A stretch of 40,860 nucleotides of DNA from NCBI GenBank assembly GCA_020425515.1, contig JAGQRI010000004.1, positions 1-40,860 of the forward strand, in the 5' to 3' direction. Position 1 is the stretch's first letter; the number at the start of each line of letters is the position of its first letter. The DNA is from Planctomycetota bacterium (lineage in GTDB: Bacteria; Planctomycetota; UBA8742; UBA2392). The notes beneath the pieces are model-generated. The model worked only from the letters and a program-made list of their open reading frames with translations, was not told where the DNA came from and searched no databases. A program made the position numbers and the translations under genes. Positions 30,939 through 40,860 of the stretch are shown in pieces.

Positions 30939-33900
30939 TCAGTTGCGGGTGATGGCCCCCGCGCTGCCGGTGCCGTCGGGTACGGACTCGACGACTGAAC
31001 CGGTTTGTTCGTCGAGGTTCGGGTTGGCCGCGCCTCCGGTACCGGTCGGGTCGAGCGAGATGTCGCCGCCGCTGCCGTTGGCTGCGCCGCCATTGCTGCG
31101 GACAATCGCCGTACCGGTCAGCGTGACGTTCGCCTCGGTGTTGCTGCCGACGTCGATCTGGTTGCCGTTGCCGCCGGTGATTCCCGTGCCGCCGTTGTTG
31201 CTGAGCGTGCCGGAGATCGTGATCGTCGCGCCGCTGCTCGCCTCCACGGTCAGGGAGCCCGCGTCGCCGCCGGCGGTACTGCCCGCGCCGCCGTGGTTCA
31301 TCACTGTACCGCTGACCGTCATCTGGCCGTCCTGCCCGCCTCGCACGGTAATGCTGCCGCCTGCCCCACCGGCGCCGCTGGTACCCGTGCCGCCGTTGGC
31401 GCTGACGATGCTGCTGATGGTCATCGGGCCATTGTCGCCGCCATACAGCTTGACCGTGCCGCCGTCGCCGCCCGCGTTGCCGCTGCCGCCAATGGCCGCG
31501 ACGTCGCCGCTGATCGTGCAGCCGGGGCCGCCTGGCGCGACGACCACCGAACCCGCGTTACCGCCGACAGCGCTGCTTCCGGCGCCGCCACTGGCATCGA
31601 GCGTGGCCGAGATGTCGAACACGGAGGTATAGATCGTCGAGGTGATGCTGTCGGAAACGAGGTTCACGTTGCCGCCGCCGCCGCCCGGCCCCGTGCCTGT
31701 TGCCGCGCCGCCGAGTGCACTGGCGGAACCCGCGACAGACATGTACGAACCCGCGCCCGAGCCGCTCAGGTTGGTGTTTACCTGCACGGTCCCGCCTGAG
31801 CCGCCCCCGCCGGCACCGTCGCCGCCGTTTGCGACCAGCGTGGTGTCGACCAGCAGGTCAGCGTCGTCTGTCCGGATTGACACCAGGTTGCCGGCGCCGC
31901 CGACTCCCGTGCCGGAAACGGTGGAACCGTTACCGCCGGATGCCGTGAAGCTGCCGCCCGTCACGTAGCAGACGGTCCGCGCCTGTACGTTGATCGTGCC
32001 GCCCGCGCTGCCGTTGTTCAGTTGGCTGTCGCCGCCGCTGACATCGAGGAAGAAATCGCTGATGCGCACCAGCCCGTTGTCGCCCCCTACGATCAGGCAA
32101 TCGCCGCCGTCGCCGCCCGGCGAATTCGCCCCGCCGGAGAGACCGCCGCGCGCGTCCAGAGTGCCGCCGACCGAAATCGATCCGTTGGGATCGGATGGCG
32201 TGAACGACTGGATTGTCAGGTGCCCGCCCTCACCGCCGGTGCCGCCCGTGGCTGCGCCGCCCACGGCGGTGCCTGTCAGGTTGAGTTCAAGCGAAGCGGT
32301 CGGCCCGCGCAGGTCCCCGACTATGACGCCGCCGTTGCCGGCAATCCCGCCCGAGCCGCTGGCCGCACCGCCGTTGGCCACAGTCGTGAGTTGCGCCTGG
32401 ACCAGCCCGCCGAAGAACGCATTGAACACTTCGATGGTGACCGGGCCGCCGTTGCCGCCCTGCTGGGTGCCGGTGCCGCCCACCGCGGTGAGGTCCAGCG
32501 AATACTGGCTGACGCTGCCGCCGATGCCGATCGCCTGCACTTGTATGGAACCGCCTGCGCCGCCGATGCTGGAGGCGCCGGTTGCGGCCCCGCCGCCGGT
32601 CATGGCGGTCACGGCGACGTTTGCCGCGTAACCGCGCGTCTGCAATAAAGCGTCGCCGCCGGAGCCGCCGGAAACTACGCCCTGGCCGCCCGCACCGCTG
32701 GCTTCCAGCAGCGCCTGCTGTATGTCCGCGTACACCGTCAGGCCGACGATTACACCCTTGCCGCCCAGGTAGCCCGCGCCGCCGTCGCCGGACACATCGA
32801 AAGCAAAACTGTGAACCACGTCGGCCGAGATACCGCAGATTCCGCCGGCGCCACCGTTCGGCGGCGCGCCGGTTAAAGTCATCCCGCCGTCCCCGCCGGC
32901 GCTGGCAGCCTGGATCACGCCCGTCAGCGTGTCAAAGCTGCCGTTGAAGGCACCGCCTGCTCCGCCGTTGGCAGAAGTGCCGCTGGTCGAGCCGCCGTTC
33001 AGTTCACAGGGCAAGAACATGTTAGCGGTGCCGTCGAACTGCATGTTCAGGGTCCCGCCTGCGCCGCCCACACCGTTACCGCCCGAGCCGCCGTTGGCCT
33101 GCACGCCCCAGTTGAAAGTGACGCCGCCGGCGTTGCTGGTCGCAAACTGCGCGACGCCGCCGGCCCCGCCCGCGCCGCCGCCCGAGCCGCCGTTCAGCCG
33201 GAACATGCCGGGCGCGAGGTAGACGTCGCCGTTGTGGGCCGCGATGTTCAGGCTGCCGCCGATCCCCGCGGCGCCGGTGCTGCTGTCGGCGCCCGTGGCC
33301 GTCAGCGCACCGGTAAAGGAAGCGCTGCCGCCGAGGGACTCGATGTCAAGGAAGCCGGCGTCTCCACCGTTGGCGCCGCTGAGATCCACCGCGCCCGAAA
33401 CCGACACGCTGACGCCGGTTGCCTGGCTGGTGATCAACCCCAGCGCGCAGGCGTCGCCGGCGCGTACGCCGGTGACCGCGCCATCGATGCGGACCACGTC
33501 GCCCGGCAGGTGCGTGCGCACCACGAAGGCATCCACCGTGCCGATGCCCGCGCCGCTGAGGTCGAGCGTCGCGCCCGCGGGCAGGTAGAAGTCGAAGCCG
33601 TAAAGGTCCACGGCGCCGATCTGCTGGCTGGAATCCTCAAAGTAGGCGCCGGGGTTGATGTTCTTCAGTTCGGTGAACGTGACGACATTGTCGGCCAGCA
33701 CCGCTGACGTCAGGAAGTTGTTGTCGATGCCGGGCGTGCCTGCACCCTCGACGACGCTGCCGTTGATCGCCGTGACGCTGACTGTACCGGCTTTGCCCCC
33801 GGCGCCGGAGCCCGTCGCGGTGCCGCCGCCGCCGTCGACCAGCAGGTTCATGCCGGCCAAGGTCGGGCGCGATGAGGGCGGGGGCGCGATGACGATGCTG

Positions 33901-34007
33901 CTGCCGCCGCTGCTGCCGCTGTCGTCTTTCTTGCTGCAACCGCCGGTGAGCAGGGCGACACAGGCCAGAATGGAAAGCGATACGCCGCTGAGGACCTTCG
34001 CGTTCAT
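30939..34007 (-). CDS. Large glycine-rich repeat lipoprotein
   Basis: The ATG at 34007 has AGGAGA upstream and gives 1022 residues. The signal peptide ends LLTGGC (Cys24), a slightly irregular lipobox, followed by SKKDDSGSSGG. From about residue 190 to 1000 the protein is built of degenerate repeats of roughly 40-50 residues. Each has strands such as GSLTVEASSGATITISGTL, or GSITVRGGQDGQMTVSGTV, followed by a turn NHGGAGSTAGGDA or similar. This looks like a right-handed beta-helix or stacked beta-solenoid with PGRS-like turns. It has no C-terminal sorting tail, unlike the beta-helix proteins at 15.5-24 kb. It is divergent from the sigma/anti-sigma operon, which makes it a possible target of that sigma factor; this is inferred from position only. 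Confidence 0.87.
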   Translation of the reverse strand: MNAKVLSGVSLSILACVALLTGGCSKKDDSGSSGGSSIVIAPPPSSRPTLAGMNLLVDGGGGTATGSGAGGKAGTVSVTAINGSVVEGAGTPGIDNNFLTSAVLADNVVTFTELKNINPGAYFEDSSQQIGAVDLYGFDFYLPAGATLDLSGAGIGTVDAFVVRTHLPGDVVRIDGAVTGVRAGDACALGLITSQATGVSVSVSGAVDLSGANGGDAGFLDIESLGGSASFTGALTATGADSSTGAAGIGGSLNIAAHNGDVYLAPGMFRLNGGSGGGAGGAGGVAQFATSNAGGVTFNWGVQANGGSGGNGVGGAGGTLNMQFDGTANMFLPCELNGGSTSGTSANGGAGGAFNGSFDTLTGVIQAASAGGDGGMTLTGAPPNGGAGGICGISADVVHSFAFDVSGDGGAGYLGGKGVIVGLTVYADIQQALLEASGAGGQGVVSGGSGGDALLQTRGYAANVAVTAMTGGGAATGASSIGGAGGSIQVQAIGIGGSVSQYSLDLTAVGGTGTQQGGNGGPVTIEVFNAFFGGLVQAQLTTVANGGAASGSGGIAGNGGVIVGDLRGPTASLELNLTGTAVGGAATGGTGGEGGHLTIQSFTPSDPNGSISVGGTLDARGGLSGGANSPGGDGGDCLIVGGDNGLVRISDFFLDVSGGDSQLNNGSAGGTINVQARTVCYVTGGSFTASGGNGSTVSGTGVGGAGNLVSIRTDDADLLVDTTLVANGGDGAGGGGSGGTVQVNTNLSGSGAGSYMSVAGSASALGGAATGTGPGGGGGNVNLVSDSITSTIYTSVFDISATLDASGGAGSSAVGGNAGSVVVAPGGPGCTISGDVAAIGGSGNAGGDGGTVKLYGGDNGPMTISSIVSANGGTGTSGAGGAGGSITVRGGQDGQMTVSGTVMNHGGAGSTAGGDAGSLTVEASSGATITISGTLSNNGGTGITGGNGNQIDVGSNTEANVTLTGTAIVRSNGGAANGSGGDISLDPTGTGGAANPNLDEQTGSVVESVPDGTGSAGAITRN

Positions 34008-34048
34008 GCTTATCTCCTGGTTCACGTTTCCGGATGGCGTTGCAGACT

Positions 34049-34090: not shown

Positions 34091-34120
34091 TTGACAGAAA
34101 TCCGGTTTTCTGCGTTAAAT
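34091..34120 (+). promoter_or_regulatory. Sigma70-like promoter of the sigma/anti-sigma operon
   Basis: A perfect TTGACA (34091-34096) is followed after 18 bases by TTAAAT (34115-34120), 42 bases before the sigma factor ATG. It does not look like a typical ECF promoter (AAC and CGT-like elements), so the operon may be read by the housekeeping sigma factor. Confidence 0.5.
34095..34112. promoter_or_regulatory. Operator-like palindrome inside the promoter spacer
   Basis: CAGAAATCCGGTTTTCTG is an 18-base palindrome with one mismatched pair out of nine. It overlaps the end of the -35 box and fills most of the spacer, the usual place for a repressor to block transcription. Confidence 0.4.
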
Positions 34121-34162
34121 CGGCTCTTCCCTCTGCGTGATCCTTATGTGAGCGGCGCCTGG

Positions 34163-34675
34163 ATGACTGTTGAGCATGGCGACTGGGACTTCAGTCGGCT
34201 CGTCGAAGAGTACTTCTCACGGGCTGTGCGATTCTGTGCCCGCATGCTTGGCAACGTCACCGACGGCGAAGAAGTCGCCCAGCAGGCCTTTGTCAGCCTT
34301 TACGAGAAAGGCCGCAAACCGTGGGAAAAGGGCGACCCGCTGCCGTACCTGTACCGTGTGCTGCGCAACGCATGCGTGGACCACGTCAGGCGCAGGAAGG
34401 TAAGGAAGGCGACCGGCTCGCTCGAAGCGGTGCAAACCCAGGCGGACCTCAGTGGGGCTGAGGAAGGCGAAATCAGGGAAGCGCTGCTCGGTGCGATAGG
34501 CGAGCTGGAAGAGGGACAACGCGAAGTCGTGCTGCTGCGCTTCTTCGAAGGGTTGTCCCTGAGCGAGACAGCGGAATCTGTGGGCAAGACGGTAGGCGCG
34601 ACGGCCATGTTGCTGACCCGCGCCAAGGCAAAGCTGAAAGAAACACTGGGCAAACTGCCCGAGTTTGGCGACTGA
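34163..34675 (+). CDS. ECF-type RNA polymerase sigma factor
   Basis: The 170-residue protein has the two-domain ECF layout. The sigma2 region runs from about 10 to 85: FSRLVEEYFSRAVRFCARML, DGEEVAQQAFVSLYEKG (the -10 and core-binding helices) and YLYRVLRNACVDHVRRRKV. The sigma4 region runs from about 108 to 160: ELEEGQREVVLLRFFEGLSL, SETAESVGKTVGATAMLLTR and AKAKLKETL. The start is ATG 34163; the open frame continues upstream to 34034, but homology begins after DWDFS, and a GTG five codons upstream is an alternative. Its stop is two bases before the ATG of the membrane anti-sigma-like protein, so the pair is translationally coupled. No C-terminal extension is present. Confidence 0.92.
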   Translation: MTVEHGDWDFSRLVEEYFSRAVRFCARMLGNVTDGEEVAQQAFVSLYEKGRKPWEKGDPLPYLYRVLRNACVDHVRRRKVRKATGSLEAVQTQADLSGAEEGEIREALLGAIGELEEGQREVVLLRFFEGLSLSETAESVGKTVGATAMLLTRAKAKLKETLGKLPEFGD

Positions 34676-34677
34676 CC

Positions 34678-36666
34678 ATGTCGGATGTTCGAAACATGTT
34701 TGCCAGGGCGCTGCGCGACGAGCTGTCGCCGGCTGAGCTGGCCGAGTTCGAGACGGCCATTGCGGGCGACCCGAAGCTGAGCGCCGAATTCGAGCGCTTC
34801 GCCGACGCGGCCGAGGGCGGCGAACTCGAGAACATCACGGGCTGGCTCGAACATGCCGGGCGCCAGCCGGAATCGCATCCGAACATCTATCGCGGCATCC
34901 AGGACGAGCTGATCCGCAAGGCCTCACGCCGCAAGCGCGGTCGCTTGATCCAGCTTGTCGCGGCAGCAACCGCAGTGGCCGCTGCCGCGATCATCGTCGC
35001 CGTCCTGATCCTGCCGACGGGCACGGACACGCCGACCGAATGGCCCGACAACACGGAAGGCCAGGTCGCGGTCCTGTACGACGACGTCCGCTACTTTGAA
35101 AGCGCATACAGCATACAGCCCTCGTCGGGCGTGAAGCTCGACATCGGCGAAGGCGCGCTCACACGACCCCAGGACCGCGGTTGCAGGCTTTACCGCGGGC
35201 GCGTTCGCGTCACGCTCGACGAGGGCAGCAGCTACGAAATTCTAGTCGGCGACCGCCGCATCTCGGCCCAGGGCCCGGGCGAGTTCGAGGTTTCCGCGGA
35301 ACCCCAACGACTCACCGCACTCTCACCCATACATCCGGAGAACGACCCAATGTTTGATTCGAAACTACTCGCACGCTTCGGCGCACAGGGGTTCGCCCTG
35401 TCGCTCAGCGTGATCGCCGGCTCGGCGACGCTCAGCGGCGCACCCGCGCCGCAGGTGGTCACCGCGCCCCAGACCATCCAGGCCCAGGCGGGCCCGGGGC
35501 CGCAGCAGCCCCAGCCGCCGACGGCCCAGGACGTGTTCACACACCTCGACCGCAACGCCGACGGCAAGCTCGACAATGTTGAAGTCCCGCAGCAGATGAT
35601 CAACGACATGGACACCGACAGCAGCGGCGACGTCGACCTGGCCGAGTTCACGGCCAAGTGGAAGCCGCCCCTGCCGCTGGATCCGAACGCCGCCTTCGAT
35701 GTGCTGGACAAGAACAAGGACGGCAAGCTCGACAACACCGAAATCGACGCTCAGCGGCTGACGGCCTACGACGACGACAGCAGCGGTGACATCGACCGGG
35801 CCGAGTTCACGGCGCACTACAAGCCCGTTGAGGAAGAGTTTAACCACCTCGACGCGAACAGCGACGGCAAGCTCGACAACACGGAAGTCCCGCAGAAGAT
35901 GGTCGACGACTTCGACGACGACAACAGCGGCGACGTCGACCTGGCCGAGTTCAAGGCGCACAAGAAGCCGCCGATGGGCCCCGGCCCGAACGGGCCGCAG
36001 GGTACGCCGGACGACCACTTCAACCACCTCGACCTCAACCAGGACGGCGTGCTGGACAACACCGAAGTGCCGCAGCAGATGATCACCGACATGGACGACA
36101 ACAAGGACGGGTCGATCGACCTTACCGAGTTCAAGGCACACCCGCCGAAGCAGCCGACCGCCGACGACGCATTCAACGCGCTCGACACCAACAGCGACGG
36201 CAAGCTCGACAACACCGAGGCCGACCAGCGCATGCTGGCAGACTTCGATGACAACAACGACGGCGAGATCGACCTGAACGAGTTCAAGGCGCATTGGCGC
36301 CCGCACCCGAAGAAGCCCGAGGACGCCTTCAAGGACCTCGACAAGAACAACGACGGGAAGCTGGACAACACCGAGATCCCGCAGGCGCTGGTCAATGACT
36401 GGGACGACGATTCCAGCGGCGACGTGGACCTGAATGAATTCAAGGCATACCACAAGCCGCCGCAGGGTGGTCCCGGTGGCGGACCGGGCGGAGGCCCCGG
36501 TGGTCCGGGTGGAGGCCCCGGTGGTCCGGGCGGCGGGCCGGGCGGCCCGGGCGGCGGACCCGGCGGTCCGGGTGGTGGTCCCGGCGGTCCGGGTGGCGGA
36601 CCTGGCGGTGGCCCCGGCGGCAACGGCCCGAAGCCTCCCAAGCCCCCGAAACGCCCGCATCGCTAG
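34678..36666 (+). CDS. Transmembrane anti-sigma-like protein with twelve EF-hand loops
   Basis: 662 residues in four parts. Residues 1-85 form a helical cytoplasmic domain (ARALRDELSPAELAEFETAI, AGDPKLSAEFERFADAAE) like anti-sigma N-termini but without the zinc-binding HxxxCxxC motif. A single helix lies at 90-112 after RRKRGR. Residues 125-215 resemble a FecR-like domain (GVKLDIGEGALTRPQDRGCR, LYRGRVRVTLDEGSSYEILV, ISAQGPGEFEV). Residues 291-588 hold twelve canonical EF-hand loops in six pairs, for example DRNADGKLDNVE with DTDSSGDVDLAE and DKNNDGKLDNTE with DDDSSGDVDLNE. A Gly-Pro tail runs from about 597 to 650, with a final PKPPKPPKRPHR. A second hydrophobic segment at 233-255 begins at an internal Met225. 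The likely role is to hold the upstream sigma factor and respond to calcium outside the membrane; the sensing role is inferred. Confidence 0.85.
   Translation: MSDVRNMFARALRDELSPAELAEFETAIAGDPKLSAEFERFADAAEGGELENITGWLEHAGRQPESHPNIYRGIQDELIRKASRRKRGRLIQLVAAATAVAAAAIIVAVLILPTGTDTPTEWPDNTEGQVAVLYDDVRYFESAYSIQPSSGVKLDIGEGALTRPQDRGCRLYRGRVRVTLDEGSSYEILVGDRRISAQGPGEFEVSAEPQRLTALSPIHPENDPMFDSKLLARFGAQGFALSLSVIAGSATLSGAPAPQVVTAPQTIQAQAGPGPQQPQPPTAQDVFTHLDRNADGKLDNVEVPQQMINDMDTDSSGDVDLAEFTAKWKPPLPLDPNAAFDVLDKNKDGKLDNTEIDAQRLTAYDDDSSGDIDRAEFTAHYKPVEEEFNHLDANSDGKLDNTEVPQKMVDDFDDDNSGDVDLAEFKAHKKPPMGPGPNGPQGTPDDHFNHLDLNQDGVLDNTEVPQQMITDMDDNKDGSIDLTEFKAHPPKQPTADDAFNALDTNSDGKLDNTEADQRMLADFDDNNDGEIDLNEFKAHWRPHPKKPEDAFKDLDKNNDGKLDNTEIPQALVNDWDDDSSGDVDLNEFKAYHKPPQGGPGGGPGGGPGGPGGGPGGPGGGPGGPGGGPGGPGGGPGGPGGGPGGGPGGNGPKPPKPPKRPHR
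35337..35352 (+). promoter_or_regulatory. Internal ribosome-binding site and in-frame start
   Basis: GGAG (35337-35340) lies nine bases before an in-frame ATG (35350). From there the product begins MFDSKLLARFGAQGFALSLS and continues VIAGSATLSGA, a plausible signal peptide with a signal-peptidase-I-like end (LSGA before PAPQ). This could give a separate exported 438-residue EF-hand protein from inside the larger gene. Confidence 0.5.
36463..36625 (+). repeat. GGTCCGGGTGG-type repeat encoding the Gly-Pro tail
   Basis: In-frame tandem units of about 18 bases (variants of GGCGGACCCGGCGGTCCG) encode GGPGGG and GGPGGP steps. Length changes by slippage would keep the reading frame because the units are multiples of nine bases. 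Confidence 0.85.
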
Positions 36667-36692
36667 GCCGAAACATCTGTAAGAACGCGAAA

Positions 36693-36718
36693 GGGGGCTG
36701 CCTTGCGGGGCGGCCCCC
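36693..36718 (+). terminator. Terminator-like hairpin after the anti-sigma gene
   Basis: GGGGGCTGCC and GGCGGCCCCC form a 10-bp stem with one G-T pair and a 6-base loop, 27 bases after the stop. The tail GGTTTCG is only weakly T-rich. Confidence 0.55.
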
Positions 36719-36820
36719 GGTTTCGTGGACGGCTGGTGGATAACTGACGCGGAATTCAGCCCTTTTGACAAGATTTGTGCGATTCGAGTCAAACACTTCG
36801 CGAAATGTAAGATTCCTTCG

Positions 36821-36886: not shown

Positions 36887-39800
36887 ATGAAGCGCATCAT
36901 GTTGTTGCTAGCCGGCGTATGCGCGCTTGGGGGCACGGTCTTCACAACTGGATGCGGTCCCGGCCTGATTGCAGCCGGTGGCGGCTCCGTCGGAGCGATC
37001 TTCGGGCTTCAGGGCAGCGACAAAAAGAAGAAGGACAACCCGCCCCCGCCTTCCAGCACGAATGTGGTGCCGGCCGTGGTGGTGACCAACCTGGTGCGCG
37101 AGGAATCACCTGCAGCGATCAATTACACGATCCTCGACGCCAACGGCGACACCTGCAGCGTGGAGATTGAATACGCCATCGGCGGCGGCTCGTTCGCGAC
37201 GTGCTTCGAGGGCAGCACCGGCAGCGAAGGGCTTACCGGGCTCAGCTCCAGTGCCGCGGGCTCGGCCCACGTGTTCACCTGGGACTTCGCCAGCGATATC
37301 GGCCCCGGGCTTACGCAGAACATCACCATCCGCATCCGCGCCAACGACGGCACGGCAACCGGCAGCTGGGCGAACCTGACCGGCCAGGACATCGGGAACG
37401 ACGCCCCCGTCGTGTCGAACATCCAGGCCAACGGCACCGACGTCGTGCTGTTCACGTTCGACCTCGCGGACCAGAGCAGCGACCTCGGCTCGCTCGACGT
37501 CTATTACTCAATCGACCAGGGGCAGAACTTCATCCAGGTCGACACCGACCCGCTTTCCGCCGGCTACGAGCTGATCGGCAACGCGCCGGAAAACCTGCTG
37601 ACCAGCCCGGCAGGCTCGTCCGGCCAGTTCATCTGGAACAGCGCGATTTCACTGTACGACTACGTGGGCGACGTGCTGATCCAGTTGAAACCCAAGGACC
37701 AGCCCTCCGGCTACAACGCGGAAACCCTTGGCGCGGCGCTCGTATCGTTGCCTTTCCCGATTGACAACTCCGTCAACGGCCCGCCGGAACTCAGCCTGCT
37801 GACAAATTTCGCGGGGCAGACTTTCGTCGGGCAGGTCCCTTTCGACGTGACCCTGACTGATGACGAATCGGACGCCGCCATCGTACTGGTCAAATACTCG
37901 GTCAGCGGCGGCCCGTTCCAGGACTGCACGCTCGTCAACCAGTTCGCGACCGGTATCGCCGGCCCCTTCCCGGCCACGCCCAGCCCCACCGGCTACTCAA
38001 TAGTGTGGGACGCCCTGGCCGACCTGAACTCTTCGGCCACGGTCACCGACGTCGTCCTGGCCATGGTGCCCAGCGACGCCAACGCCGGCACCGCCACTCT
38101 CAGCGACCCGTTCACCGTGATCGGCAACGAGGCGCCGAACGTCACCGACGTGCAGGTACTGCAGGATTCGGGCAACATCCCCGTCGTGATCACGGTCCAG
38201 GACGGCCAGGCCGACCCGGTCAGCGTGGACATCCAGTTCTCGACCGACGGCGTCAACTACACGCCTCTTACCTCGGCTGACTTCGTGTTCGGCGACCCGA
38301 GTTCGCTGAATTCAAGCCCCGTCGGCGAAGACAACGTGCTGATCTGGGACACCAACATCCGCTTCGCTTCCACCAACGAGGCCTCGGTTACGTTGCAGGT
38401 GACGCCCACCGACGACCCGCCCAGCTCGGCGGCGGCGGCCCTGACGGGCACGACGTTCACCAGTTCGGCGTTCCCGATCATCAACGACGCCGCCGGCTCG
38501 ACACCCGTCAGCATCACCGTGTTCACGACCGATATGGCCGGCACGCCCAACACCAACGATGATGTGACCGTGGCGGGCAGCGGCCAGGTGTACCTGGACC
38601 GCACCATCAACCCGTCCTCGGCCGTGGGCTTCACGACCTTCTGGAAGATCGTCGAAACCGGCGACGACTACGGGCAACTGCTCGATGTCAGCGGCGGCTC
38701 GCTGAGCTTCTCGACCGGCTCGATCACGGTCAACGATCCCACGATGATCAACGACCAGGACACCTTCACGATCGACGACGGGCTCAACGGCCCGGTCGTG
38801 TTCGAGTTCGACAACAACTTCGCCGTCACGGCGGGCAACGTGCCCGTGGATTTCTCTGCGGCGGCCACCGCCAACGACGTCGCGCTCGAGCTCGAAAACG
38901 CGATCAACGCCAGCCCGGCCGTGCGCATCAAGGCCCAGACCATCAGCGCCGGCACAATCAGCCTGACGCACGAAATCGCCTGCCAGATGGGCGACTTCAC
39001 CGGCAACGGCGGCAACGCCCAGGCAATGGCCTTCGGCGGCACCGGCAGCCCGGGCGCTGTCGGCGCGCAACTCAACGGTGGCGGCGGCACCCAGCGCGTG
39101 CTGTACCAGGCGCCGGCAACGCCGCCCGCGGGAACGAACTTCGTGACACTCGATTGCGCGATCGACGCCCCGGCCTACTTCACCACTGTGCACAAGACAT
39201 GGAAGCTGTGGTGGGGCGACAAGCCGACTTCGGTGCAACTGACGCCGACCTCGCCCAACGTCCTGACCAACGGGCAGATCAACTTCAGCGCGGCGGTACT
39301 GCCCGCGACCGCGCCGCAGTTTGTCGCGTGGGAGGTTGTGGGCACCAGCGCCAACGGCACCATCGGCGCCGACACGGGCATCTACACCGCGCCCGGCAGC
39401 GTCCCGGCCGGCAACCCGATCACCGTCCGCGCCGTCTGCGTGGACCCGTCGGTCTCACCGGGCACGGCCAGCGTCACGATCCTGCCGGAGCCGACCTCGG
39501 TCACGGTTACGCCGCCCGTCGACAACCCGCCTAACTGGGTCAACCCGGACCTTGCCCTGGGCACGACCATCACCTTCACCGCGTCGGTCACGCCCGCGGC
39601 CGCACCCCAGACCGTGAACTGGCGCATCATCTGGAACGCGCAGGACTGGGGCTCGGGCAACTCGACCGTCGGCACGATCGACAACGCCGGCAACTACACG
39701 GCGCCCTCGACGCTGCCGAGCCCAGACCTGGTAACGATCCAGGCGGTCAGCACGGCCAAAAGCAGCGTTTACGGCGGCTTCACGGTACACCTGAAGGCCC

Positions 39801-40860
39801 CGCCGCCGACCAGTTTCATCGTCTCGCCGTCAACGGCGACCGTGTTCGCGGGCGGCGCCGGGCGGCAGTTCACGGTGGGCAGCTTTGTACCCGCCAACGC
39901 CAACCAGTCCGTGACCTGGGAATTGAACCCGGTGGTCGGCAACATCAGCGCCAGCGGCTTCTACTCACCGCCGGCGACTTCGCCGACGCAGCAGGCGATT
40001 ACCGTGACCGCCCGCAGCGCCGTGGCGCCGACGGTTACCTCCACCGCGATCATCACGCTGAATCCGCAGGCCGCGACGCCGCCGTCCAGCGTGACCATCA
40101 GCCCGAATGAAGGCATCACGATTTCGGCCACGCAGAGCACGCAGTCGATCCAGTTCACGTCATCGGTTCTGCCGACATCGGCCAGTCAGGCTGTCACATG
40201 GTCGTTCGTCGGCGCGCCGTTCGGCACCATCACGCAGAGCGGACTGTATACACCGGGCGCGACGGCAACCGATGTGACGGTCACGCTGCGATGCCAGGCC
40301 AACGCCTCTCCGAACCCGTTCGCTACCGTGGACGTCTGCATCACCGGCGACGGCACAAACTGGGGCGAAGGCCCGAACATGCTGATGGGGCGCGGCGACG
40401 CAAGCGCCGTGTACGACGGCTACAACGACCGCATCTGGTACGTCGGCGGGCACAACGAAACATACCCGTCCGACCACACGGACACCTGCCTCTACCTGGA
40501 CGTCACGGGCGCGCCCGCCTGGGGCCAGTACCTTAACATCGGCGGCACTTCCGGGCTGAGCAAGTCGCCGAACTGCCTGATGTGCGTCTATGACGAGAGC
40601 AACGAACGCCTGATTGCTGTGCTCGGCCTGGGGCCGGCCACCCGGGTCGACGTCTACACGCTCGACCTGACGAAGGTGGACCCGCCCAGCAACCCGCCCG
40701 AGCCGTGGCAGAAGCTGAACTATGGCGGCGCCGCCAATGCACCGGTGCTTGGCGGCAACTTCGGCCACCACACGTGGTACGACAAGTACGCCAAGCAGTT
40801 GCAACTGATGGAAGCCAACGACGAGGTCTACATCCTCGACTGCGATTCGGGGCATGCGAC
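36887..40860 (+). CDS. Very large secreted lipoprotein with Ig-like domains, 3' end beyond window
   Basis: The frame is open from the ATG at 36887 (AGGGGGAA upstream) to the end of the window, 1324 residues. The signal peptide ends FTTGC (Cys23), and a Gly-rich and Lys-rich linker with PPPPSS follows. Residues about 60-560 are four or so beta-sandwich units with VTDVQVLQDSGNIPVVITVQ and similar openings, typical of Ig-like or cadherin-like repeats. Residues about 775-1140 are four Big-2-like repeats, recognised by SVTVTPPVDNPPNW, SFIVSPSTATVFAGGAGRQF and SVTISPNEGITISATQST, each closing with GTITQSGLYTPGA or a variant. From about 1160 a kelch-like or other beta-propeller region begins (DASAVYDGYNDRIWYVGGHN, LIAVLGLGPATRVDVYTLD). 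It is probably anchored on the outer membrane and exposed to the medium. Confidence 0.88.
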   Translation, partial: MKRIMLLLAGVCALGGTVFTTGCGPGLIAAGGGSVGAIFGLQGSDKKKKDNPPPPSSTNVVPAVVVTNLVREESPAAINYTILDANGDTCSVEIEYAIGGGSFATCFEGSTGSEGLTGLSSSAAGSAHVFTWDFASDIGPGLTQNITIRIRANDGTATGSWANLTGQDIGNDAPVVSNIQANGTDVVLFTFDLADQSSDLGSLDVYYSIDQGQNFIQVDTDPLSAGYELIGNAPENLLTSPAGSSGQFIWNSAISLYDYVGDVLIQLKPKDQPSGYNAETLGAALVSLPFPIDNSVNGPPELSLLTNFAGQTFVGQVPFDVTLTDDESDAAIVLVKYSVSGGPFQDCTLVNQFATGIAGPFPATPSPTGYSIVWDALADLNSSATVTDVVLAMVPSDANAGTATLSDPFTVIGNEAPNVTDVQVLQDSGNIPVVITVQDGQADPVSVDIQFSTDGVNYTPLTSADFVFGDPSSLNSSPVGEDNVLIWDTNIRFASTNEASVTLQVTPTDDPPSSAAAALTGTTFTSSAFPIINDAAGSTPVSITVFTTDMAGTPNTNDDVTVAGSGQVYLDRTINPSSAVGFTTFWKIVETGDDYGQLLDVSGGSLSFSTGSITVNDPTMINDQDTFTIDDGLNGPVVFEFDNNFAVTAGNVPVDFSAAATANDVALELENAINASPAVRIKAQTISAGTISLTHEIACQMGDFTGNGGNAQAMAFGGTGSPGAVGAQLNGGGGTQRVLYQAPATPPAGTNFVTLDCAIDAPAYFTTVHKTWKLWWGDKPTSVQLTPTSPNVLTNGQINFSAAVLPATAPQFVAWEVVGTSANGTIGADTGIYTAPGSVPAGNPITVRAVCVDPSVSPGTASVTILPEPTSVTVTPPVDNPPNWVNPDLALGTTITFTASVTPAAAPQTVNWRIIWNAQDWGSGNSTVGTIDNAGNYTAPSTLPSPDLVTIQAVSTAKSSVYGGFTVHLKAPPPTSFIVSPSTATVFAGGAGRQFTVGSFVPANANQSVTWELNPVVGNISASGFYSPPATSPTQQAITVTARSAVAPTVTSTAIITLNPQAATPPSSVTISPNEGITISATQSTQSIQFTSSVLPTSASQAVTWSFVGAPFGTITQSGLYTPGATATDVTVTLRCQANASPNPFATVDVCITGDGTNWGEGPNMLMGRGDASAVYDGYNDRIWYVGGHNETYPSDHTDTCLYLDVTGAPAWGQYLNIGGTSGLSKSPNCLMCVYDESNERLIAVLGLGPATRVDVYTLDLTKVDPPSNPPEPWQKLNYGGAANAPVLGGNFGHHTWYDKYAKQLQLMEANDEVYILDCDSGHA

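Follow-up and report, generated by a model that had tools for sequence, protein, structure and literature searches.

An ECF sigma factor paired with a candidate membrane anti-sigma factor carrying an EF-hand array in a family of Planctomycetota

ECF sigma factors usually regulate their own operon, and membrane anti-sigma factors release the sigma subunit by conformational change or proteolysis. Of the class I anti-sigma domains (ASDI), about 56% carry zinc ligands and about 44% do without them (PMC7406223). The closest precedent for the locus described here is the CaBP-SigV circuit of Caulobacter, in which a separate periplasmic protein, CaBP, carries three EF-hands; the circuit forms a positive loop with calcium limitation as a cue, and its membrane link is unknown (PMC13171946, 2026). 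Some methanobactin operons contain an ECF/FecR pair together with the MauG-like di-haem protein MbnH (PMC3621798). Usual EF-hand pairs have about 25 residues between their loops, and those of lanmodulin have 12-13 (PMC10232371). The literature that we searched contained no anti-sigma factor with EF-hands.

The window, meaning the whole analysed stretch of 40,860 nucleotides, originates from a Planctomycetota MAG (the features under study are listed in Table 1). An earlier note on this DNA had proposed an ECF sigma factor gene starting at ATG 34163 and followed, after two bases, by the ATG of an EF-hand protein. The ECF assignment and the spacing were borne out. The sigma product matched Pfam Sigma70_r2 (6.7e-13) and Sigma70_r4_2 (8.4e-13), exceeded the cut-off of TIGR02937 and aligned with FecI in hhalign at 97%; its stop codon (TGA, 34673-34675) precedes the ATG at 34678. 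With r2 (13-79) and r4 (105-158) of 170 aa and no region 3, the predicted product of 34148-34675 is a two-domain ECF factor. The start codon had to be revised. The true start is probably the GTG at 34148, five codons upstream, because the -10 element is followed after exactly 7 nt by an in-frame GTG in 14 of 14 family genomes and the protein read from it opens with V-S-[GAST], an opening conserved in 14 genomes. As these 7 nt leave no room for a leader, the sigma mRNA is probably leaderless.

Table 1. Features of the sigma/EF-hand locus in the window
Feature	Coordinates	Strand	Basis or remark
-35-like element CGTTAA (family consensus CGTGAA)	34113..34118	+	conserved upstream of sigma, 15/15
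-10-like element CGTGA	34136..34140	+	16-17 bp after the -35 element
ECF sigma factor gene	34148..34675	+	Pfam r2/r4; 175 aa from GTG 34148, 170 aa from ATG 34163
EF-hand membrane anti-sigma candidate, 662 aa	34678..36666	+	domain matches, synteny, conservation
Cytoplasmic helical domain, residues 1-86	34678..34935	+	candidate class I anti-sigma domain, zinc ligands absent
Single transmembrane helix region, residues 88-118	34939..35031	+	hydropathy maximum 2.81 over 19 residues
Extracytoplasmic all-beta FecR-like region, residues 130-271	35065..35490	+	AF2 strands; absent in genus g2
EF-hand array of six loop pairs (12 loops), with 9 residues separating the two loops in each	35548..36438	+	
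Gly-Pro-rich tail, 70 residues	36454..36663	+	
GC-rich stem-loop 3' of the anti-sigma gene	36684..36728	+	fold of 36670-36740

The reading frame of the 662-aa protein has a coding-like composition (GC of 0.70/0.45/0.85 at the three codon positions) and was conserved in 15 genomes. The one membrane helix and the long Gly-Pro tail that had been read from the sequence were both recovered: a single hydrophobic stretch is preceded by an Arg/Lys-rich one, and the last 70 residues comprise 56% Gly and 31% Pro. The FecR-like region fared less clearly. It was all-beta in the AF2 model (strand pLDDT mostly 72-90, except for residues about 210-240), and hhalign placed 77 collinear columns, including 'A-x-G-x-E-F-x-V', on E. 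coli FecR; however, the probability was low (5.7, E 0.0067) and the protein gave no Pfam match to the FecR domain PF04773. The beta domain therefore appears weakly FecR-like. A PDB sequence search with the N-terminal/FecR-like profile yielded nothing significant (best 0.09; CnrY 0.84), and Foldseek with the model of the EF-hand protein returned only low-TM calmodulin-like matches. The membrane topology given in Table 1 is one that we infer. Downstream of the gene, the fold of 36670-36740 had an MFE of -38 kcal/mol (z -3.83), a stability equalled in no shuffle, and the stem-loop is the probable end of the transcription unit.

The 662-aa protein is likely to function as an anti-sigma factor, judging from the conserved gene order and from its N-terminus, and the candidate N-terminal domain presumably contacts the sigma factor. 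This domain was conserved in all homologues, including the order-level outgroup G016. It was matched weakly by two anti-sigma models, both scoring under their cut-offs: of 13 members, NF052375 hit nine and PRK13920 seven; the zf-HC2 match (E 0.06-0.12) was likewise below cut-off, and none of the anti-sigma models tested on the N-terminus passed its curated cut-off. The earlier interpretation was supported for the ECF/anti-sigma pairing. It had also stated correctly that the zinc anti-sigma (ZAS) motif Hx3Cx2C is missing, residues 1-86 being free of cysteine, but its conclusion that the N-terminus would be an unusual anti-sigma type for that reason did not hold, with about 44% of class I domains lacking the ligands (PMC7406223). 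Class I anti-sigma domains comprise about four helices, a three-helix bundle and a helix 4. Because the sigma and anti-sigma genes of locus L027 lie in one frame, their read-through fusion was folded with AF2. In this artificial sigma-linker-anti-sigma fusion (overall pTM 0.56), the N-terminal domain formed helices at 211-225, 231-243, 245-258, 264-275 and 282-324, and the first helices among these reached pLDDT of about 90, in comparison to 34-65 for the N-terminal helices of the EF-hand protein modelled alone; since different alignments and lengths were used in the two runs, the higher helix confidence in the fusion is suggestive only. Foldseek with the fusion model returned sigma domains.

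The pair, sought in relatives as the earlier note had advised, was syntenic in 15 of the 16 genomes searched in the planctomycete family. In every family genome with the EF-hand protein (15), the sigma gene lay directly upstream and in the same order, so that EF-hand proteins beside unrelated genes without conserved synteny, which the note had named as evidence against its reading, were not encountered. The two genes usually overlap or are a few bases apart, with 100-300 bp between them in a few genomes. A profile of the N-terminal and FecR-like parts matched 16 of 17 genomes of the order; outside the order, it gave four weak matches in a 392-genome phylum sample, and a profile search of IMG/VR found no relative. 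The relatives with names are MAGs, for example HKST-UBA84, and a closer profile named only four planctomycete MAGs. In G002 (L030 7762-9781), the EF-hand anti-sigma frame is split into two overlapping frames, which is a frameshift or an assembly error.

Domain content differed at the edges of this distribution. The outgroup G016 has the sigma factor, the N-terminus, the transmembrane helix and the beta region and lacks EF-hands, whereas three genomes of genus g2 (L037-L039) keep the N-terminus, the transmembrane helix, six EF-hands and the tail and lack the beta region. Thus, what stays constant outside the membrane within the family is the EF-hand array, present in all its members, and not the FecR-like domain. 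A second ECF/EF-hand pair was present in genome G000 on contig C92 (L002 781-2229, minus strand), where the ECF gene is followed by that of a 482-aa transmembrane protein with a beta region and eight EF-hands at a gap of 9, lacking the Gly-Pro tail. The remaining genomes of the order yielded no orthologue of the C92 pair, whose sigma gene is not preceded by the CGTGAA motif. Contig C74 of G001 (L058 1498-2544) encodes a related transmembrane protein, perhaps a third variant, which has a single EF-like loop and a tail rich in Asp/Glu.

Upstream of the sigma gene, the motif CGTGAA-N16/17-CGTGA was present in all 15 family genomes, 7 nt before the in-frame GTG; the window's genome reads CGTTAA and G001 has CGTGT, and the G009 site was found in a motif scan of 17 genomes. 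The full motif with a GTGAGC start arose in none of 4800 shuffles and occurred nowhere else in 473 kb of compared loci. The 17-genome scan returned 134 sites, compared with 58 when the pattern was reversed as a control; many of them lie inside genes, and the recurring sites in promoter position precede the same genes in several genera. G000 has about 40 ECF genes, among which the motif marks only the one at 34148, and of its ten motif sites three are clearly placed as promoters: those of the sigma gene, a YHYH lipoprotein and a CCP/MauG lipoprotein. This promoter type is new here. Its presence at the sigma gene itself implies autoregulation of the operon, and since ECF factors usually autoregulate, we infer that the 34148 sigma factor reads CGTGAA-N16/17-CGTGA promoters. 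A further pattern upstream of both the sigma gene and the giant lipoprotein gene described below, TTGACA-N17-GTYAAA, was considered as a promoter and dropped, as it was confined to the window's genome.

The gene of the CCP/MauG di-haem peroxidase lipoprotein (PF03150, CCP_MauG, 4.1e-41) was found in 13 of the 17 genomes and carried the motif upstream in all 13, the match being exact in 10 and off by a single base in three (G001, G006, G009); the g2 genomes keep this promoter. Given an overall frequency of about one exact site per Mb of strand, chance is not a credible source of 10 exact matches in 13 upstream regions, and the peroxidase is very likely a target of this sigma factor. The YHYH lipoprotein (PF14240, 1.3e-64) has the exact motif in both genomes with the gene, and its best reading is that of a predicted target there. 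Secreted Gly/Pro-rich proteins possibly belong to the regulon: a secreted Gly/Pro/His-rich protein lies behind the motif with a clear reading in L182, and probably in L177 and L178, where the frame is not settled. A small response regulator (L179, L180) is a further candidate. Some genomes were discordant. G004 has the CCP and YHYH genes with the motif and no detected orthologue of this sigma factor, perhaps owing to an incomplete MAG; in G005, G007 and G008 the sigma pair is present and no CCP gene was detected. Gaps in the MAGs may explain part of the mismatches in these four genomes. CCP/MauG enzymes hold a structural calcium; the regulon targets give no information on the signal.

Several large proteins are encoded around the pair. 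A giant lipoprotein of 1797 aa, with repeats and a C-terminal Kelch propeller, occupies 36887-40860 of the window and extends to about contig base 42281; in seven genomes, it lies directly downstream of the pair on the same strand, followed in several by a Ser/Thr kinase with an FGE-sulfatase domain. It has its own sigma70-like promoter, TTGGCG-N17-TATCAT, together with a conserved TGTAAGATT box. As a target of the ECF factor it was rejected, given this separate promoter and the intervening stem-loop. On the other side, 30939-34025 (minus strand) encodes a divergent 1028-aa Gly-rich lipoprotein (25% Gly) without a Pfam match, and similar large Gly-rich proteins are divergent from the pair in G003 and G002.

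The reading that we favour, with reasonable though far from complete confidence, is that of an autoregulated transmembrane EF-hand anti-sigma switch with a surface redox regulon. On the cytoplasmic side of the membrane, the N-terminus of the 662-aa protein would bind the sigma factor and keep it inactive, and the single transmembrane helix would relay the signal. The external EF-hand array, whether or not a FecR-like domain intervenes, would act as the sensor; it would fold around Ca2+ or a comparable metal and convey to the inside how it is loaded with metal or what it touches in the envelope. Once its metal occupancy or its contacts change, the anti-sigma protein would be altered and the sigma factor freed by conformational change or proteolysis. 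The freed sigma factor would then act on CGTGAA-N16/17-CGTGA promoters to express its own operon together with a small regulon of envelope genes, chiefly that of the CCP/MauG lipoprotein, in two genomes also that of the YHYH lipoprotein, and possibly those of the secreted Gly/Pro-rich proteins. Calcium or another metal as the signal is a tentative element of this scheme, and the identity of the metal, the direction of the response and the mechanism of sigma release are suppositions.

The array itself is highly regular. The 662-aa protein matched EF-hand_1 (4.6e-32), and the six pairs with filled ligand positions reported earlier were confirmed, as all 12 loops fit the strict pattern D-x-[DN]-x-[DS]-G-x-[ILV]-[DSN]-x-x-E, in which positions 1, 3, 5, 9 and 12 of the 12-residue loop are ligands and position 6 is Gly. 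A permissive pattern counted 130 loops across the 15 family proteins; position 1 was D and position 12 was E in every one, and position 9 was D or S in 121. AF2 modelled the pairs as helix-loop-helix-loop-helix with one short shared helix (pLDDT mostly 71-90) and small strands in both loops. The 9-residue spacing was absent from the other EF-hand proteins of G000 that were checked, except for the C92 paralogue. Such a regular pair, shorter than that of lanmodulin, is a structural unit worth solving. It is somewhat unlikely, yet the strongest of the alternatives, that the protein is an ordinary membrane anti-sigma factor answering to another signal (the FecR-like domain, a partner protein or proteolysis) and that the EF-hands are a calcium-stabilised spacer or a wall- or surface-binding rod which does not report metal levels. 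The number of pairs (2 to 7) and the gaps between pairs (14 to 34) vary freely, as a spacer would allow, the linkers are rich in Pro and, like the Gly-Pro tail, suggest reach, and G016 has the anti-sigma and FecR-like parts without EF-hands. However, the ligand positions and the 9-residue geometry (63 of 63 pairs in 15 proteins) are strictly kept, and it is the FecR-like domain that was lost in g2 while the array was retained.

Sensing of a metal other than calcium (a lanthanide, manganese or similar) is a distinctly less probable variant. The lanmodulin model NF053806 matched at 2.3e-15, below its cut-off (56.8 bits versus 135), D stands at position 9 in most loops, the gap is short and the array is strongly acidic; against this, proline is not among the common residues at loop position 2, and the gap of 9 in all pairs departs from the 12-13 residues that, with P2 in at least one loop, characterise lanmodulin. 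That the EF-hand protein is a surface protein merely co-transcribed with the sigma gene is very improbable, for despite the lack of an N-terminal model match over cut-off and the resemblance of the Gly-Pro and EF-hand regions to surface material, a conserved short helical domain and transmembrane helix directly follow the ECF gene in every genome, persist in the EF-less G016 and recur in a second such pair of the same genome.

The transmembrane EF-hand switch can be set against the described systems part by part. With the non-zinc class I anti-sigma factors such as RskA and RseA (PMC7406223), the protein shares a short helical cytoplasmic N-terminus, a single transmembrane helix, a gene adjoining that of an ECF factor and a dispensable zinc motif; it differs in its weak model match and in the EF-hand array outside. 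The FecI/FecR and MbnI/MbnR systems likewise combine an ECF factor with a membrane regulator containing a beta domain, but the similarity to FecR is weak, the domain is dispensable in g2 and EF-hands are foreign to FecR. Lanmodulin resembles the array in its short spacing between EF loops and its D-rich loops, and differs from it in gap length and P2, the array being fused to a transmembrane protein and having many more loops. A one-protein transmembrane metal sensor, in which an EF-hand array fused to an ECF anti-sigma factor controls a surface di-haem peroxidase and occurs in more than one copy per genome, is a possibility that we advance with caution. If true, external calcium or another metal would be read and answered by a surface redox enzyme, which would be a specific blueprint for how bacteria couple calcium to transcription; its promoter motif and target genes are named, so that input and output are directly testable. 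In the Caulobacter CaBP-SigV circuit, an extracytoplasmic EF-hand protein is also encoded beside an ECF sigma gene; here, the EF-hands are fused to a membrane anti-sigma candidate, which, if the reading is right, would supply the kind of membrane link that was not found in the Caulobacter work.
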